Assembly: GCA_016223245.1 (NCBI GenBank)
Contig: JACRPL010000006.1
Span: 147,417-211,416 of the forward strand
DNA from: Candidatus Saganbacteria bacterium
Lineage (GTDB): Bacteria > Margulisbacteria > WOR-1 > XYC2-FULL-46-14 > XYC2-FULL-37-10
Direction of reading: 5' to 3'
DNA: 64,000 nt
The notes below the pieces were generated by a model. The model was given only the letters and a program-made list of their open reading frames with translations, was not told where the DNA came from and did no database searches. Below, piece by piece: positions 22,473-54,070 of this stretch (position 1 is the first letter of the stretch; the number at the start of each line of letters is the position of its first letter). The position numbers were made by a program, and so were the translations under genes.

Positions 22473-24320
22473 ATGAAGCCAGGTGGAATAAGCGGAAGAG
22501 GATTAAGCGTATCAAGAGACTTGCGAGTACCTATGCAAATAGGCAAGCCATTTTCTTTGCCTCATGAAAGTCAAGTCAAAATTATGCTCAAGTTATTAAT
22601 GGAAACAACTGATGAAAAAAAAGCGCGAATAGCTGTGAATTTCTTCGTTCAAGCGGGGGATGCGGTAGTTTCGATGTTAAAAGATAAGCTTTATCTTGTT
22701 GATGATGTAGATGAGACTGTTAGGGACAGACTAATTGCCGCTCTAACAAAGATAGGAGGCGAGCCAGTATTAAAATTTATCCCGGAATTGCTTGTCCCCC
22801 TGTGGTATAAGGGGGGCAAAGAAATCCTAGAGCGTCTTCCCCAGGCAAGTGAAAAGATAGCTCAAGAGATTAGAAATTTTAATATAGATGCAATTCGCCC
22901 GGATGAAGAACGCTCCTTTGTTGCCCCAGCATTGCGTCTTTCTTTTCCAATTGTAATGCGGGCGCTTAAATTTTTTGAAGACCATCAACCCCCAGCAGAT
23001 ATTCTCGATCTGGTTTATGCGATTTATAAAAGAGCTTCCATTCAAGATATGAAAAACCAGCATGATCCTTCCGATTGCATGATAGTAATAAGTCTTGCTT
23101 GCGAATTCAAGTGTTATGCAGAAGAAGTTCTCATTAGATATGGCGGGCCTGCCATGGCCCTTAAAATCGTTTCGGACCCAGAAATTCCCGTAGGCACCCG
23201 TTGCTCGCTTACCCAGGAATGTTTTTGGCTAAATAAACCAAGACATATATATACAGAAGAGATAGTGGAGCCGCTGAAAGCGGCAATTCTTGATCCGGGA
23301 CTCAAAGAATTCCGCGATTATTTTTGTGTGGCATTGGGACGCACAAGAAGCCCAAAAGCTCTTCCAGCCATTATCGCGGCAATGAGAGGTCCTGATCCTA
23401 TTTTGCAAGACCACGCCATAGAGGCGCTTAGCTGGCTGCCAGGCAAAGAAGCAACACAACAAATAATTGACATTTTTTTAGAGAAAAATACTGGACGAGA
23501 GGAAGTTATTGGAAGAGTCAGAGCAAAAAGCGCGAGTGTTGTTCCGATGCTTATTTCTTCCGCTCTTGCCCAGCAAGCCAAAAATGGTCTTTCCGAGGAG
23601 GTTTGGATTGATATCGCAAAGATTTTGGGCCGGGGAGCAGACCACGAAGTCTTGGCTTCTATGCTAAGATCAATTATCTACACATTTGACAGAGAAGCAG
23701 AGTATTATACCATTTTGTTCCATCGGCTGATAAGAAGGGAATTAAGTCATCGCGAAGCTTTTGTCCCCATCCTGCAAAAAATTCTGAACGATTCTTCCAT
23801 CCCTTTAGCGCTTCGCAAAGATTGTCTTTGCTATTTTTCCGAGGCCAGTTCCATCCCGGAAGCGGCTTTGGCACTCGTCTCGGCTATTGAAATGAAAGAA
23901 CCTGAATTGCGTTCGGAGGCAATTTATTTTATTTTTGAACACTCATTTTTAGAAGGCCTAGAGCAGTTGTTTAACTCCCAATCCGGAGCAATCCATCGCC
24001 TCCTGGAAGGATTGAGGATAAGTCTAAGGCTTCTAACTGCAAATGGAAGCGAATCAGAACCAGTAAAACTGGATACCATCCCTCCAATGGACGCCACTCA
24101 AAAGAAATTGACCGTTAGCAACATTGGAGATATTTGTTTGCACTTAATCGTGGCCTTCCCCACATTCCCCAAAACAACTAAAAAATTAGCTAAATATTTT
24201 ATCCAAGAGAGTTTAGAATTTTTTTGCGCAATAATTCGATCTGAAAGCAGCTTAAATGATAAACCGTTTACATATCTCGCAGAGAACTGTATCGCGAAAA
24301 TTGCAGATGCCATGAAATAA
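22473..24320 (+). CDS. large HEAT-like alpha-solenoid protein, function unknown
   Basis: A 615-residue protein, mostly alpha-helical, with degenerate HEAT/armadillo-like repeats: RDRLIAALTKIGGEPVLKFI (near 90), RDYFCVALGRTRSPKALPAI (near 285-304) and PDPILQDHAIEALSWLPGKE (near 310-329). No catalytic motif, signal peptide or membrane segment is visible. The N-terminal ~25 residues (MKPGGISGRGLSVSRDLRVP) are low-complexity. CAGGAGGG gives a strong ribosome site, and a short hairpin lies in the leader. It is the only plus-strand gene in this part of the window and is isolated from its neighbours. Its architecture recalls the HEAT-type genes at 47-52 kb, although I could not align them by eye. 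HEAT scaffolds usually mediate protein contacts; nothing more can be claimed. Confidence 0.7.
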   Translation: MKPGGISGRGLSVSRDLRVPMQIGKPFSLPHESQVKIMLKLLMETTDEKKARIAVNFFVQAGDAVVSMLKDKLYLVDDVDETVRDRLIAALTKIGGEPVLKFIPELLVPLWYKGGKEILERLPQASEKIAQEIRNFNIDAIRPDEERSFVAPALRLSFPIVMRALKFFEDHQPPADILDLVYAIYKRASIQDMKNQHDPSDCMIVISLACEFKCYAEEVLIRYGGPAMALKIVSDPEIPVGTRCSLTQECFWLNKPRHIYTEEIVEPLKAAILDPGLKEFRDYFCVALGRTRSPKALPAIIAAMRGPDPILQDHAIEALSWLPGKEATQQIIDIFLEKNTGREEVIGRVRAKSASVVPMLISSALAQQAKNGLSEEVWIDIAKILGRGADHEVLASMLRSIIYTFDREAEYYTILFHRLIRRELSHREAFVPILQKILNDSSIPLALRKDCLCYFSEASSIPEAALALVSAIEMKEPELRSEAIYFIFEHSFLEGLEQLFNSQSGAIHRLLEGLRISLRLLTANGSESEPVKLDTIPPMDATQKKLTVSNIGDICLHLIVAFPTFPKTTKKLAKYFIQESLEFFCAIIRSESSLNDKPFTYLAENCIAKIADAMK

Positions 24321-46829: not shown

Positions 46830-47051
46830 TTATCTTAATTGAATGAATTCTTCCCGGCTTAATCCTGACTGCTTAATTATGCTATGAAGCGTTCCCTTCT
46901 TAACTTCTTTTGGATGTGATGGAAGCGTAACTCGTTTTTGGGCCTTATCATTTAACAATGTAATATGCCCGCCGGATTGATGGTCAATATAAAATCCTGC
47001 TCTTTGCAATATTTTTATTATCTCTTTTGGTTTTATATTAGGAAGCTTCAT
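46830..47051 (-). CDS. hicA: HicA-family mRNA interferase toxin
   Basis: A 73-residue HicA: LPNIKPKEIIKILQRAGFYI, then HQSGGHITLLND with the catalytic His near residue 29, and VTLPSHPKEVKKGTLHSIIK. HicA toxins cleave mRNA and are double-stranded-RNA-binding-fold proteins. Overlaps hicB by 4 bases (ATGA); the order hicB-hicA with the antitoxin first is one of the known arrangements. Confidence 0.9.
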   Translation of the reverse strand: MKLPNIKPKEIIKILQRAGFYIDHQSGGHITLLNDKAQKRVTLPSHPKEVKKGTLHSIIKQSGLSREEFIQLR

Positions 47052-47302
47052 GCAGGAACAACCACCGGCACCTCAACGATGCCAATAAATTCTTCCTCCG
47101 GTTCCCTGGGGATCGATTCGCCATGCTTAATTAAACTTGCGCAGTAGCACTTTATGGCATCTTTGACCATATCCACGGCTTGTTCAAATGTATCCCCTTC
47201 TGAAACAACGCCTGGCAATGCTGGAACAGTAACAGTATATCCTCCCTCTTCGGCTGCTTCAAAAATTGCAGTATACTTTAAAATTTTTATTTTCTTTTTC
47301 AT
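47048..47302 (-). CDS. hicB: HicB-family antitoxin
   Basis: An 84-residue HicB: YTAIFEAAEEGGYTVTVPAL and PGVVSEGDTFEQAVDMVKDA form the pseudo-RNase-H fold. It lacks a C-terminal HTH or ribbon-helix-helix domain, so autoregulation would need another protein. GAGAGGT precedes the ATG. Expected to neutralise HicA. Confidence 0.9.
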   Translation of the reverse strand: MKKKIKILKYTAIFEAAEEGGYTVTVPALPGVVSEGDTFEQAVDMVKDAIKCYCASLIKHGESIPREPEEEFIGIVEVPVVVPA

Positions 47303-47386: not shown

Positions 47387-48921
47387 CTATTTTCGACCAA
47401 ATTTATATCTCATAAACTCCAACCAATTAGAAAATACTTTACCGCCATAATAAATCCTTTCAATGGCAGACCAACTGCCAGTATCGTTTTTATCTTCATG
47501 GGCAAGCCCTTCATTATTATAAATAGCGACACAACTTAACCGCTTCCCATTATAATTTTCTATTGAGAACTTAAGTATATTGGCATTTTCCCTTAATATT
47601 GTCTTTCGCTGATTGTCATCAAGGCCGAGAAGAAAATCAAGCAGTAAACGGACTGATTCTTCAATTTCTACCATATTCATCGGCGAAGAAATTTTCACTT
47701 TTATTTCTTTAATGCCTGCGGATTCCAGCGCCTCAATAATCTTCTTTTGCGTTTCGAGGCTAATATCATTTATAAAAGCGCCATTTTCAACATATCCTCT
47801 TGAGAATTTTGCAAGTTCACCCATAAAAGCGTTATGCCTTGCACTTTTTGCTTCCATTGCTTCCATTCTTTCCAGCACGTCCGCAATCTCCATTGCCAAA
47901 TCAAGCACTAATCCTCTTATTCGACTGCTTTGATGATTATCCACTAAATCCTGCAGGATCGGGATCATCTCGCGCACTTCCTCAACACTTGGGATTTCAA
48001 CCGTTTCATCAAGTATTTGCTCCATAAAACCAATTAATTTTGCATCATCCGCACAGACTGCTCGAAATTCTTCAATAAAAGTTCTTCCTGCCGGCAAAAT
48101 CATATCTTTTGCCGAATCCACCGGCTGTTGTTCGCGAGATAATGGCAATAATTTTTTGGATCCTTCGATAATATTTTGCAATGAAAGGTAAGATCTCGAA
48201 GAAGGAAGCAAGAAATCAAGAACTGCTTGAATCTGTTCAGCGGCATCTAAAGGCATAACTTGGGCACTTGGTGAGAGTTCATAGCTCATTAGCTCAGAGA
48301 TGATTGCTTCTCCGTCAGGAAAACCTGAAACGTACTGGCGCAGTTCTCTAAAATCTTCTTCTTTTAAGGTGCGTTTAGCTGAAAACTCGCCGCGCAAACG
48401 AAGCCCTCTCCATTCTTTTTCGTTTAAGGTATATTTAAGTGAAAATTCGCCATACAAAATATTTATCATATTTAATTTGCGGAATAAAAGTTTCCTTTCT
48501 TTTTTGGGAATACATCTAAATAAGGCTTTGATCTCTTGAGCCGATAAATTTTCTTCTCTTAGCAAATACGTCGCGACATCATCCGAATCGATTGGGAATC
48601 CACTGCGTATGAAAATTTTTGACACAGTAATTTTAGCTGATCTTGCTTTTGCTAATTCGGCGGCGACTTCGTCTGGAAGTGGATAATCATATGCGATATC
48701 CCTAAGCAATGAATTCAATAGCGGGAGATCGGTTTTTATGACATCATAACTATTGGAATCTGCAATCCGAAAAGCCCGGAAGGCGACATTGCCCTAATAT
48801 CCATCATTCTTCCTGGATCAAAGGTTTTCGCAATTTCAACTGCCCTAGTCCATAAGACCTTCGGAGTTATTCCTCTTGATGCCGCAATAACTCCCCTAGC
48901 CGGATTAAACATAATCAACAT
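47387..48921 (-). pseudogene. unknown gene of the HEAT cluster, split by a frameshift
   Basis: ATG 48921 follows AAGGAGG and opens MLIMFNPARGVIAASRGITP ... IAKTFDPGRMMDIRAMSPSG, ending at 48736. A second frame is open from 48793 and reads GNVAFRAFRIADSNSYDVIK ... to the C-terminus at 47387 (443 residues from its first TTG). The two are -1 relative to each other; the shift must lie in 48737-48793. Together they give about 510 residues, helical, with no recognised domain. Its start overlaps the end of the upstream HEAT gene by 7 bases. The shift could be a sequencing error. Confidence 0.6.
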
Positions 48922-50150
48922 TTTATAGCCTCCTTACATAAACTAACAGTGAGTTTGCCGCCCTTGATAGCCCCTTTGCCTTGCCTGCTGTTTTCCAGAA
49001 ATAATTGTGCGGTTGCCGCGCCTTTTGGAATTTCCCTAAAAATAAAAGTTGCGACATATTCATCTCCAGCCCTTTGGCAAAAGAGAGTTCGCGTCTTTCT
49101 CCAAATTGCGCTCCTTTCCTTGTCTGATTTAGCTTTTTCCAACAATCTAAGCGCCTCAGACAATTTCAAGCTTATTTTCCGAGGAGGCGCATAAAGTTCT
49201 TCTTCAATATCTTCTCCCGATATTTTTCCAAGGCTTTCTCTTGCGGCATGGCGAATTTCACTGTTTTTACTCTTTAATAACTCCAACAGACGCGATTTGG
49301 CGGCAATAATTTTAAGGTCCCCCAACGCATCAATAGCGGCAATCCGAATTTTAGGATCGTTATTTTTTAGGCATTCTATAAGGATTAAAGACAATGAATC
49401 GTCCCCCACTTCCCCCAAAGCCTCAATTATCAAAACTTTTTTTTCAGATTTTTTTTCTTTGGCCAGCAATCCGATAAGAGCAGGCTTTGCTTGCCCTTTA
49501 AAATATTTCAATCCTTCAACGACATCAAAATCATTAAGTAAAAGGCCAATTAAGATAGGGGCGACCGAGGCATCGCCAATCTTGCCGAGCGCTTCTGCAG
49601 ATACCTTAGAAAATGGCTTGGAATGCATATATCCTGTATATCCTGCAAATTTGAGCAATACTTGTGTCGCTTTTTTGTTTTTTGCATTACCCAAAGCAAC
49701 AATGATCTCTCTAATAAAATCATAATTATCCAAGAGATCTTTAGCATTGGATAATCTTTCGATAAAAGCGTCAATGATCCTTCCCTTAAGCATATCAGGG
49801 GTTTTGGCATCAATAAGCCATTCAATCAATCTAGGGAGAGCTTCTTCTGGCGCCTTATATTCACTGCTTGATAATTTCTCTATTTGGGCTTTGATATCTT
49901 TCTCTAAGGCATTATCCGCCGCGTCTATTTTGGCACGGATCTGCGGCAGGGCATATCCCGATCCTTCAAGAAACTCTAAAAATTCAGAACACCTTGGCCG
50001 ATCTTGGGAGCAGAAGTTCTCTGCCGCATTCAAGGCTTCGCTGTTGTCATTTATTTTCCCATCGTACCCTGTAAGCCCTTCATGGGCGTCGGCGATCCTC
50101 AAGAATTTCCTATATTTTTCCGGCGCGGTTTCAATTATTATTTCTGCCAT
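48915..50150 (-). CDS. HEAT-repeat protein of a paralogous pair (short form)
   Basis: A 411-residue protein. Residues about 1-60 are a shared N-terminal module, MAEIIIETAPEKYRKFLRIA then GYDGKINDNSEA; about 150-300 are HEAT/PBS-lyase-like repeats (EALGEVGDDSLSLILIECLK, DALGDLKIIAAKSRLLELLK); about 360-411 begin a C-terminal beta module (FIFREIPKGAATAQLF) that stops early compared with its 703-residue paralogue. No catalytic motif. TAATG overlap with the upstream paralogue; 7-base overlap downstream. Function unknown. Confidence 0.75.
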   Translation of the reverse strand: MAEIIIETAPEKYRKFLRIADAHEGLTGYDGKINDNSEALNAAENFCSQDRPRCSEFLEFLEGSGYALPQIRAKIDAADNALEKDIKAQIEKLSSSEYKAPEEALPRLIEWLIDAKTPDMLKGRIIDAFIERLSNAKDLLDNYDFIREIIVALGNAKNKKATQVLLKFAGYTGYMHSKPFSKVSAEALGKIGDASVAPILIGLLLNDFDVVEGLKYFKGQAKPALIGLLAKEKKSEKKVLIIEALGEVGDDSLSLILIECLKNNDPKIRIAAIDALGDLKIIAAKSRLLELLKSKNSEIRHAARESLGKISGEDIEEELYAPPRKISLKLSEALRLLEKAKSDKERSAIWRKTRTLFCQRAGDEYVATFIFREIPKGAATAQLFLENSRQGKGAIKGGKLTVSLCKEAIKC

Positions 50151-52261
50151 TATTTATTCTCCGGATTTTCCAATTCAAAATTTTCAGACATTCCAACATA
50201 TTTGCCCTTTGCATCAAAGAAAACAACAAAACAATTGATGGTCTCTGTCCTTTCATCCAGCCAAACAGGGATTGTTGCTTTGCCGTTTAATATTTTCCCT
50301 TTCCCCTGCGCCCACCCGTCAAAGTCCTCATTACTGCCTAATACTGCTTGCGCGAAAACTGCGCCTTTTGGAATATCACTAAATTCGAAAATGGCTAAAA
50401 ATTTAGCAGAACCGGCGCTTTTGCCTGCCACTCCTGTTTTTCTTACAGAAACAACTTCAGGAGCATCTAACCCATTCTTTATATCAAGTATCTTCTCTAT
50501 TGCTTTTTTATTTTTTGAAGAAACATCGGAAGCGCCAAGTTTCTCTTTTAAAGCTTTTTCCAAATCACTATATTCGATTTCCCAATTTGTGCCGCATAAA
50601 ATCGGAACAAAAATCGGATAAAACAGCTCTGATATTAATTCCGGCGAAAGATCGCGCAAAACATATTTAGTATGCAGATCTTTGCTCCAATTAAATCTTA
50701 AACTCCTGTTTATTAATACGAATCTATAAAGCGCGCCATTTATTTTATCCTGCAGTCCTTGGGGCAAATCTTCAGGGAGTTCGCTTTCTAAAAGTTTTGC
50801 AAAAACGCTAGCGGACAAAAACATGCGCAGCGCCTTTTTATAATCAGTGGCGGGAGGGTCTTTTATCGCCGGCCCATTTATATTTTTTAGGAGCAGCGCC
50901 GTATATTGTTTTCGATTATCTAACGGCATATCCGACGCGATCGCCGCGGATAGAATTCCTGCGATCATTTCTATGGAATACCTATTAAGATCAAGTTTTA
51001 AAGACCTTTTGACTATTTCCACTTTTAGCCCAACGGGGTTCTCGTTTTCAACAAAATCGGCCGCAATGGTTAAAATGCCGTAATCTTTATCGGAATAATC
51101 GTTATCTTTTTTTTCTAACGAGTCAAAAAATAATTTGACGATATCCTGTTTTTCATTTTTGGGAAATTCCTCGGATGTTAGAAGCTCCTTCAATACTTCT
51201 ACTGCTTTTTTACGGAATTCTTTATCGCCAAAAAGAGCTTTCGCGGCTCCATATATCTTCATCTTATCATGCGCTCCAACATCGAAAGAAGCGGCAAGCT
51301 TTGCCAATGAAAATATGCAAACATCTACAGCCTTCTTTTTCTGCAATATATTTATTATTGCACCGGCTAATTTGCCTTTTTCTTCTTTTGGCAGATTGGA
51401 GGCAATAAGCCGACCAAGAATCTTTTTCTCACTTTCAAAGCCGTAATCATGCTCTCGCGCATTCTCTAACACGTCAAAAACCGACTTAAGGATAATTGCT
51501 GTCAATTCCAATGCATTTGCGCTTCGAAAATCCAGTCCATCATATTTTTCAACCGCATAGCCAAAAAAGCCGACAATTTTCCCTCTTGTCTCCGCATCGG
51601 GATTTGCCTTGATTATCTTCAATGAAATCGATAATGATGTATCGAGGGCGCCATCTTTTAAGCTGTCCCTATCACCTCCAAACAATTCCTTATCGGCCTT
51701 TAACAATATAATATTTCTCCCGAAAGCGGATATTGCGTCAAATATTTGAGTTCCAAGCCTATTCGGTGATTGTTCATAATTTATATCCTCTAAAACCTGC
51801 AGTACGGTTTTTTGCACATTTTTGTCAACGCTTCCCAGTTTTTGAAGCAATGCAGTTATTATTGCTTTTTGCAGTTCTTCTTTAATACCAATCTTAAGAC
51901 CAATCTTAAGTATCTCCCGCAAATTCTTGATAGCATTCATTGCAATTTCGTTATTCTCGCTATTGAGGTCGGCAATGGCTTTTTTTGCTTTTTCTTCAAT
52001 AGTATCTGCAGCCGGCGTTTCGGCTGCCTTTTCAACAACTTTCTCTCTTAGATCAAGCAATGCATATCCGGATTTTTCAAAATAATCCAGTATATCCCTA
52101 TAATCGGATGGGGATTCTGCACGAAAGCAAGCGGCCGCTTTTCTCGCCTCATTTTCATCATTTATCTTTCCGTCATACCCCGTTTTACCATCGTGGGCAT
52201 CGCCGACCCTGAAGCATTTTCTGTATTTTTCCGGAGCCGAATCGATTATTATTTCCGCCAT
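50150..52261 (-). CDS. HEAT-like alpha-helical protein of a paralogous pair (long form)
   Basis: A 703-residue protein with the same N-terminal module as its neighbour (MAEIIIDSAPEKYRKCFRVG, then GYDGKINDENEA), a long helical solenoid (about 95-570) and a complete C-terminal beta domain (about 610-703, FEFSDIPKGAVFAQAVLGSN ... CFVVFFDAKGKYVGMSENFE). No signal peptide and no enzyme motif. DGKIND recalls half of an EF-hand/dockerin loop, but the remaining ligand spacing does not fit. AGGAGG before ATG. Gene order suggests a complex with the exported protein encoded upstream. Confidence 0.72.
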   Translation of the reverse strand: MAEIIIDSAPEKYRKCFRVGDAHDGKTGYDGKINDENEARKAAACFRAESPSDYRDILDYFEKSGYALLDLREKVVEKAAETPAADTIEEKAKKAIADLNSENNEIAMNAIKNLREILKIGLKIGIKEELQKAIITALLQKLGSVDKNVQKTVLQVLEDINYEQSPNRLGTQIFDAISAFGRNIILLKADKELFGGDRDSLKDGALDTSLSISLKIIKANPDAETRGKIVGFFGYAVEKYDGLDFRSANALELTAIILKSVFDVLENAREHDYGFESEKKILGRLIASNLPKEEKGKLAGAIINILQKKKAVDVCIFSLAKLAASFDVGAHDKMKIYGAAKALFGDKEFRKKAVEVLKELLTSEEFPKNEKQDIVKLFFDSLEKKDNDYSDKDYGILTIAADFVENENPVGLKVEIVKRSLKLDLNRYSIEMIAGILSAAIASDMPLDNRKQYTALLLKNINGPAIKDPPATDYKKALRMFLSASVFAKLLESELPEDLPQGLQDKINGALYRFVLINRSLRFNWSKDLHTKYVLRDLSPELISELFYPIFVPILCGTNWEIEYSDLEKALKEKLGASDVSSKNKKAIEKILDIKNGLDAPEVVSVRKTGVAGKSAGSAKFLAIFEFSDIPKGAVFAQAVLGSNEDFDGWAQGKGKILNGKATIPVWLDERTETINCFVVFFDAKGKYVGMSENFELENPENK

Positions 52262-52289
52262 CTTAACCGCCTCCTAAGTTTTTTTCATC

Positions 52290-53375
52290 CTACAAACTAC
52301 TTTGATAGTCGATCAACTTTTTTATCACTCTGATCAAATTTGTAAAATTAGTAAGCGGGATCGTTTTTTTCGCTTGTCCAGTTATAGAATCAATTAATTT
52401 TTGCACTTCTTGTTTAAACTTTGGATCGCCCTTAATAAGATCACAAGCTTTTTCACATTCTTGCCCTTCGCTTGGCGCAAATCCGTTGTGTATTTCCTGT
52501 ATTCCCCCGGAATACAGGCCAAAGCTAATAGTCCATCCCCCGCCGCCTGTCCCTCCCGATCCTCCCTGAAAAAAAGTAATTGAATTATTCTGAAATTTTG
52601 TTGCCACAGCATAGACGCCATACCCTGTGGTACAAATAAAATCTTCGAGGCAATCGGGGATCGCATCTTTTAGGGCGGCATTTATATCAAGATCGGTTTT
52701 AGGCTTGATCAACCATTCAAAACAATTATTTACTTTTCCAAGTAGGGCTTTTTTACTTGGATCAATTTCGGCTTCTCCATAAAGCCACAACAACAAACTA
52801 TTAGATACTTTGCCGGCAAAATCATTTTGGTTTGGCGTGTAAACAGCAGTAATTTTACCTTTCGAATCATAAATTGCGAGAGTTCCCGATGCAATATCAA
52901 AAACATATGAATTGCCAAGATTATCGATTTTTTCTATCGTTGAGCCATTATTATAAACTTTTGTATTAAGAGATGGCTTCCCGTCAAACATTGTTGTTAT
53001 ATCTATGCCATCGATATTTTGGCATTTGGGAGGGATGTACAAACTGCAGACAGGCGGATTTTCCGCATCACCTGAAGCATCAGCAATGCTGGCGTCTATT
53101 GGCATAGATATATCAGCTGGCACATCTGATCTGATATCAACAGGCGTAGGAATGTCCACTCCAGATATTTCCGGCTTAAAAATAATTGAATCTTGTGCGC
53201 GCAAAAGATCGCCCGCTTCAGCTTTTGCGTCAATTGTAGCTCTGGCAGAAATTCCGCTTATCGCCGAATTACCGCACCCAAAATGTGGAAGAAGAGTTGA
53301 CCCTGCTAGAGCAAGCCGTGGAAGAGCCATTCCAATCGATCGAACACTTCTCGTAAAATCCATTCGCATACCCAT
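52290..53375 (-). CDS. exported Asp/Pro-rich protein heading the HEAT cluster
   Basis: A 361-residue protein. Residues about 5-35 form a basic then hydrophobic export segment (VRSIGMALPRLALAGSTLLP) ending HFGCGNS, a weak lipobox candidate. Next is an Asp/Pro/Ile-rich low-complexity linker (VDIPTPVDIRSDVPADISMP) like those of surface lipoproteins, then a Cys-containing globular domain with a Gly-rich GGSGGTGGGGW stretch. ATG 53375 follows GAAGGTGG; a GTG at 53423 is an alternative start. It precedes the two HEAT genes by 28 bases. No recognised family. Confidence 0.6.
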   Translation of the reverse strand: MGMRMDFTRSVRSIGMALPRLALAGSTLLPHFGCGNSAISGISARATIDAKAEAGDLLRAQDSIIFKPEISGVDIPTPVDIRSDVPADISMPIDASIADASGDAENPPVCSLYIPPKCQNIDGIDITTMFDGKPSLNTKVYNNGSTIEKIDNLGNSYVFDIASGTLAIYDSKGKITAVYTPNQNDFAGKVSNSLLLWLYGEAEIDPSKKALLGKVNNCFEWLIKPKTDLDINAALKDAIPDCLEDFICTTGYGVYAVATKFQNNSITFFQGGSGGTGGGGWTISFGLYSGGIQEIHNGFAPSEGQECEKACDLIKGDPKFKQEVQKLIDSITGQAKKTIPLTNFTNLIRVIKKLIDYQSSL

Positions 53376-53453: not shown

Positions 53454-53666
53454 TTACAAGATCTTTACCACTTTGAGGTTAGAGTGCAATCCGCGCATGA
53501 TCTTGATCCTGTTCTTTTTGACATTGTATTCTTCGGCAAGCATTTCGATCATGGCAACGTTTGCTTTGTTATCGACAGCGGGTGCTGTCGTGTACAACCT
53601 ATTGCCCTTGAGCTCATTTCGGCTCGCGTTCGCTATTACTTTAATTTCTAATGTTATTTCTGTCAT
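53454..53666 (-). CDS. DUF167/YggU family protein
   Basis: A 70-residue DUF167 protein: EIKVIANASRNELKG, RLYTTAPAVDNKANVAMIEM and NRIKIMRGLHSNLKVV match the family throughout. Function of DUF167 is not established. Start ATG 53666 overlaps the stop of the upstream protease-like gene (ATGA). Confidence 0.87.
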   Translation of the reverse strand: MTEITLEIKVIANASRNELKGNRLYTTAPAVDNKANVAMIEMLAEEYNVKKNRIKIMRGLHSNLKVVKIL

Positions 53667-54070
53667 GCTTTCCTTATAAAACAAGTATGTTTCTTTATAT
53701 TTTTGAATTGGATCTCAAAAAGATCAAATATTATTTTCCTGCCCAGAACATTTGGCACTTCATTGTTTTCAGCGATAGCAACATCCACCTCAATTTCATG
53801 CTTGCCAATTAACAGCTCCATTTTGTGGATATATGCATTTATATGGCCTGATCCGATCCCCTTTAATCTTATTTTCTTTCCCTTATTTATATCATGGCCA
53901 AACAATTCGCCATGATCTTTCGTCATTATGCTGATATCTGCGCCAGAATCCACATACATGTTGATCGCTCGCCAAACCTTCGACTTGTCTTTCATATAAA
54001 CTTCAGCGACAGGGCGATAAACCGATCCAAACGACTCAGAGTATTCTTCAAGCCAGCGGCATTCGATCAC
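53663..54070 (-). CDS. retropepsin-like aspartic protease domain protein
   Basis: A 135-residue single-domain protein with NMYVDSGADISIMTKDHGEL (near 37-56; DSGA active-site motif) and NVLGRKIIFDLFEIQF near the end, as in clan AA retropepsin-like proteins that act as dimers. Such short genes usually accompany DUF5678 genes, as here. Substrate unknown. Overlaps neighbours by 4 bases on both sides. Confidence 0.83.
   Translation of the reverse strand: MIECRWLEEYSESFGSVYRPVAEVYMKDKSKVWRAINMYVDSGADISIMTKDHGELFGHDINKGKKIRLKGIGSGHINAYIHKMELLIGKHEIEVDVAIAENNEVPNVLGRKIIFDLFEIQFKNIKKHTCFIRKA

Follow-up and report, generated by a model that had tools for sequence, protein, structure and literature searches.

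Two adjacent genes in the window (the whole stretch of 64,000 nucleotides that was analyzed) encode proteins of 703 and 411 residues that begin with the same small domain, here called the N-module. Judged by Pfam and NCBIfam scans and by the open-access literature searched, the N-module is an undescribed domain family, and within the genomes searched it is restricted to this phylum. In alignments with related enzymes, it stands where those enzymes carry a lipoprotein-like signal. We place at about 0.5 the probability that the 703- and 411-residue proteins are extracytoplasmic solenoid proteins with a binding or scaffold role, brought or held there by the N-module and with a C-terminal module (C-module) providing accessory binding.

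The genome that contains the window (1.65 Mb in 24 contigs) is the sole member of its genus among the genomes compared. The cluster comprises the following features, in window coordinates.

52290..53375, minus strand: head gene, an orphan open reading frame of 361 aa with an Asp/Pro-rich stretch and a weakly hydrophobic N-terminus ending in Cys
50150..52261, minus strand: gene of the 703-aa protein, N-module plus alpha-solenoid plus C-module (open reading frame, paralogue alignment, predicted fold)
52067..52261, minus strand: N-module of the 703-aa protein (profile E 4.7e-24)
50474..52009, minus strand: predicted helical solenoid of the 703-aa protein, residues 85-596 (low-confidence AlphaFold2 model, Foldseek matches to ARM/HEAT chains)
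50159..50473, minus strand: C-module (IPKGA) of the 703-aa protein, predicted all-beta (profile E 8.2e-47, this sequence being itself a row of the profile; model strands)
48915..50150, minus strand: gene of the 411-aa protein, N-module plus HEAT repeats plus truncated C-module (open reading frame, Pfam, paralogue alignment)
49956..50150, minus strand: N-module of the 411-aa protein, with Cys47 and Cys54 (profile E 6.6e-25; model of residues 1-105; Cys count)
49221..49598, minus strand: HEAT repeats of the 411-aa protein (Pfam HEAT_2 E 1.6e-20, HEAT_PBS E 9.5e-8)
48939..49070, minus strand: truncated C-module of the 411-aa protein, profile positions 21-64 of 99 (E 3.3e-9)
48736..48921, minus strand: fourth gene, piece 1, 61 codons from ATG to TAA with an AAGGAGG site (open reading frame, coding potential)
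47387..48718, minus strand: fourth gene, piece 2, a 443-aa open reading frame in another frame (open reading frame, coding potential)

The initial annotation described four packed genes on this strand, and three of the frames stand: the head gene and the 703-residue gene are 28 bases apart, the 703- and 411-residue genes overlap by one base, and Shine-Dalgarno sequences precede the starts at 52261 and 48921. The gene starting at 48921, however, ends after 61 codons and continues elsewhere. Coding potential calculated from codon statistics trained on the window's genes lies in the first of these frames to approximately 48790 and in the second from approximately 48735 to 47387, and the second piece opens with a TTG that has no ribosome site. 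Because the coding potential passes from one frame to the other, the fourth gene is best regarded as a single coding sequence interrupted by a frameshift, which may be a mutation, an assembly error, or a case of recoding. A GH48-like enzyme in genome G046 is split over two open reading frames in different frames (L089:7608-9462, minus strand) and resembles the fourth gene of the window in this respect. Further genes flank the cluster on the same strand: just downstream is a HicAB pair (46831-47302), in which a HicB-like antitoxin gene (47048-47302; HicB_lk_antitox E 3.7e-12) is overlapped by a small open reading frame with an ATG at 47049 that appears HicA-like by eye, and just upstream of the head gene is a retropepsin-like aspartyl protease of 135 residues (53663-54070; Asp_protease E 2.9e-6).

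The C-module of the 411-residue protein was reported to be cut at the ribosome site of the next gene, and this is borne out by the sequence, in which the last codons of the 411-residue gene read through the AAGGAGG of the fourth gene and its TGA overlaps the following ATG. We also considered, and rejected, an out-of-frame continuation of this C-module within the beginning of the fourth gene, as the joined sequence scored 40.3 bits, within the range of shuffled sequences (5 of 300 scored higher). The frameshifted fourth gene, a C-module that stops at position 64 of 99, and the single cysteine in the N-module of the 703-residue protein, which could be the remnant of a lost pair, are all features that might be expected of a cluster decaying under relaxed selection and leaving two large proteins without a current function. 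We consider such decay improbable: the frames of 703, 411, and 361 residues are long and uninterrupted, their codon usage is normal (0.19, 0.17, and 0.12 per codon, respectively, against 0.10-0.20 for genes of the window), and each large gene has a ribosome site or an overlapping start.

No matches to the head protein were found in Pfam, NCBIfam, PADLOC, or PHROGs, and the fourth protein matched no known family and had no PADLOC match. Searches of the phylum's other 73 genomes gave no convincing relative of either (best E 0.015 for the head protein and 0.003 for the fourth); the four-gene order is therefore not conserved, and a conserved four-gene operon was rejected. The view of the cluster as one undescribed unit is thus not supported; two of its four genes are orphans, and one of its frames is broken. 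Analysis of gene neighborhoods shows instead that it is the tandem arrangement of N-module genes that recurs, in 7 of the 14 genomes with N-modules, as pairs involving a solenoid or C-module in this window and in G044 and other partners in G037, G039, G072, G073, and G046. A role in defense was also considered and set aside, since PADLOC and PHROGs yielded repeat-level or weak matches only; the PADLOC matches of the 411-residue protein fall mostly inside its HEAT repeats (best E 7e-12, residues 257-311). The most hydrophobic 11-residue stretch of the head protein scores 1.52 in a hydropathy scan, where clear signals in relatives score 2.3-3.2, so that export of this protein is a possible but weak prediction; a weak suggestion is that it may be a membrane-attached partner.

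The proposal that the two large proteins have modules in common at both ends is confirmed by alignments showing identity of 39% over the first 144 residues (E 9e-23) and of 35% over 71 residues of the IPKGA region, which in the 703-residue protein falls in a final 100 residues predicted to be all-beta. The C-module has no Pfam, NCBIfam, or significant PDB match. In a profile search it was found to end proteins in G044, G072, G059, and G060; the G059 copy terminates a GH9, and the G060 protein, which begins in the manner of a lipoprotein, has two EF-hand loops of canonical appearance and, by eye, a helical middle region. In the searches made, the earlier statement that no known family is represented holds for both modules as well as for the head and fourth genes.

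Between their shared ends, both proteins had been described as HEAT proteins. For the 411-residue protein this is well founded, with the Pfam matches listed above and designed alphaRep HEAT chains as its closest solved relatives (E 6e-35). The 703-residue protein, on the other hand, has no Pfam HEAT match, and its designation as an alpha-solenoid is a prediction from a low-confidence model (mean pLDDT 58) that is all-helical over residues 85-596 and matches ARM/HEAT proteins with a best E of 1e-7 and low TM-scores. A second HEAT-type gene reported at 22473 of the window is indeed of this type (HEAT_2 E 3e-11); neither the N-module nor the C-module search matched it.

The N-module comprises approximately 65 residues arranged as helix, loop, helix, helix, with a loop of the form [DNS]-G-x-I-[DN]-x-x-x-E that, compared with a canonical EF-hand loop, has one extra residue between Ile and Glu. 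The model of residues 1-105 of the 411-residue protein has a mean pLDDT of 82, with values of about 90 over most of the domain and 62 in the loop, and matches no PDB fold with an E below 5. The module also lacks Pfam, NCBIfam, or other significant sequence matches, and the open-access papers searched on this phylum and on signal-less enzymes with EF-hand- or dockerin-like domains describe neither it nor the C-module. Both window proteins have the module at residue 1, the loop motif, and no signal peptide by hydropathy (best hydrophobic windows of 0.55 and 0.56 for the 703- and 411-residue proteins). A pair of cysteines at like positions is present in 10 of the 33 modules, against 0.8 expected under a Poisson model, an excess that is a description rather than a probability because the modules are related to one another; 20 of the 33 have no cysteine and the 703-residue copy has only one. 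The simplest reading is that the pair forms a disulfide, which would fit an oxidising compartment. The short N-module proteins at L035, L037, L063, and L078 (122-185 aa) belong to one family, and several of them end in a CPxCxGS-like motif (CPICVGS, CPTCPGS, CPVCLGS).

At a cut-off of E<=1e-3, a 17-row profile recognized the N-module in 14 of the phylum's 74 genomes; among the 309 genomes searched from outside the phylum, there was no match. Contig scans with exact peptide patterns, which reach close relatives only, also found no relatives of the 703-residue protein or of the 411-residue N-module outside the phylum. The partner domains are diverse. The N-module is found on HEAT or helical proteins in this window, G044, and G047 and on an ankyrin protein in G063; it heads GH48-like enzymes in G072, G073, G032, and G046 (E 1e-11 to 1e-14) and both a GH9 with CelD_N (E 2.5e-77) and a GH8 (E 3.9e-16) in G039. 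It is also carried by small proteins whose remainder appears by eye to be a beta-sandwich and by two proteins that appear beta-barrel-like (G040, G042), readings without Pfam support. Two N-modules are frequent on the enzymes. We count partner domains of extracellular types (GH9, GH8, and GH48-like) in favor of an extracytoplasmic location.

In all 24 proteins examined, the N-module is located at residue 1, most with a Shine-Dalgarno sequence and little upstream frame, and none has a hydrophobic core: the best 11-residue Kyte-Doolittle means range from -0.32 to 1.17, whereas clear signals in these genomes score 2.3-3.2. These assignments are based on a hydropathy scan, not on a trained predictor. 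Signals are present elsewhere in the phylum, on the full GH48 enzymes of G031 and G034 and on the GH9 enzymes of G070, G048, and G032. The GH48-like enzymes of G067 and G068, which belong to the same order as the window's genome, have what by eye are lipoprotein-like signals at their N-termini, with a hydropathy maximum of 1.85, and the GH48-like enzymes of G073 and G072, whose catalytic parts align with those of G068 and G067 at 41% identity over 487 residues and 42% over 508 residues, start with N-modules. It is mainly this exchange that leads us to think that the N-module marks extracytoplasmic proteins, and it follows that a protein without a signal peptide need not be cytoplasmic. The distinction drawn in the initial annotation between an exported head protein and HEAT proteins that are not exported is accordingly doubtful. 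Some enzymes have neither a signal peptide nor an N-module, namely the GH9 enzymes of G059 and G047 and a GH48-like enzyme of G066 (L040:6333-8528, L117:4107-5946, and L116:2621-4609); signal-less enzymes are therefore not exclusive to the N-module, and the phylum has more than one class of them. Several further proteins without a signal, of envelope type or beta-rich, have in common a short "LAQA/LAQV" motif (IYLAQAVP, VLLAQAGG, VVLAQVAD) at the N-terminus (L011:6674, L012:4889, and L116:1714-2512, minus strand), which could be another sorting tag in this phylum.

The lack of a signal peptide in every N-module protein scanned would also be consistent with a cytoplasmic docking or oligomerisation domain, with the solenoids as intracellular scaffolds and the GH enzymes acting on intracellular or membrane-bound glucan. 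HEAT and ankyrin solenoids are commonly intracellular, the G073 pair has a GT2-type glycosyltransferase next to it, and the GH8 in G039 is similar to the cellulose-synthesis protein BcsZ. BcsZ itself is periplasmic, however, and GH9 and GH48-type enzymes are generally known to act on insoluble glucans outside cells; the lipoprotein-like signals on related GH48-like enzymes and the cysteine pairs of the N-modules also argue against a cytoplasmic setting, which we regard as rather unlikely.

The loop and the partner enzymes (GH48, GH9, and GH8) also invite comparison with the cellulosome, as the loop resembles an EF-hand loop and the only PDB matches of the triple module in G047 are dockerins, at non-significant E values of 0.17-0.42. 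Cohesin (PF00963), however, exceeds its cut-off in only two of the 74 genomes, G044 and G055, of which G044 alone has the N-module; profile comparison of the N-module with dockerin gave a probability of 0.1; no PDB fold matched the N-module model; and classical dockerin proteins have signal peptides. A cellulosome was thus rejected as unlikely, since cohesin does not track the N-module and profile comparison detects no dockerin similarity, and a dockerin-like role for the N-module is very unlikely. The N-module has no significant sequence similarity to EF-hands or dockerins (best E 0.17), but this test is weak, since the canonical-looking loops in the protein of G060 likewise go undetected by Pfam. 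A weak cohesin match was noted at G028:C3:97298-97600, inside an open frame of 16,989 codons that represents a giant protein of the phylum.

If the two window proteins are extracytoplasmic solenoid proteins, as we favor, the N-module would do the sorting or anchoring for which other proteins use a Sec or lipoprotein signal, the HEAT-like solenoid would provide a binding surface, and the C-terminal beta-sandwich could serve as an accessory binding domain. A broader and more tentative proposal, which we think has the lesser chance of being correct, is that the N-module is the recognition domain of a signal-peptide-independent export or surface-anchoring pathway of the phylum, with cellulase-type enzymes, beta-sandwich proteins, and HEAT or ankyrin solenoids as its cargos. 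Should the N-module direct export, it would show by what means polysaccharide-degrading enzymes that lack Sec signals are delivered in an uncultured phylum, would correct localization predictions that now call such proteins cytoplasmic, and would constitute a small portable tag. Even if it is not related to export, annotators can replace the labels "HEAT protein" and "hypothetical" with a defined domain.

A comparison with known systems shows partial likenesses to several. The repeat region of the 411-residue protein is like HEAT_2 and PBS-lyase-type HEAT repeats (PF13646, PF03130) and the 703-residue protein has a similar predicted solenoid, but the latter has no Pfam HEAT match, and the N- and C-modules of both are absent from all HEAT families in Pfam and NCBIfam. 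The catalytic part of several N-module proteins is like that of GH48 exoglucanases (PF02011), above the curated cut-off; these enzymes are distant from true GH48, however, scoring approximately 30-54 bits where the GH48 enzymes of G031 and G034 score 544 bits. Like dockerins and EF-hands, the N-module is a helix-loop-helix with a DG-x-I type loop, is found on enzymes of GH48, GH9, and GH8 type, and is sometimes doubled; unlike them, it is at residue 1 without a signal peptide, has a longer loop, gives no significant match, and is not accompanied by a corresponding distribution of cohesin. Lastly, as with the N-terminal sorting domains generally known from non-Sec secreted proteins, one N-terminal domain is found on unrelated Sec-less cargos, with the difference that the cargos of the N-module would be polysaccharide enzymes and solenoids.
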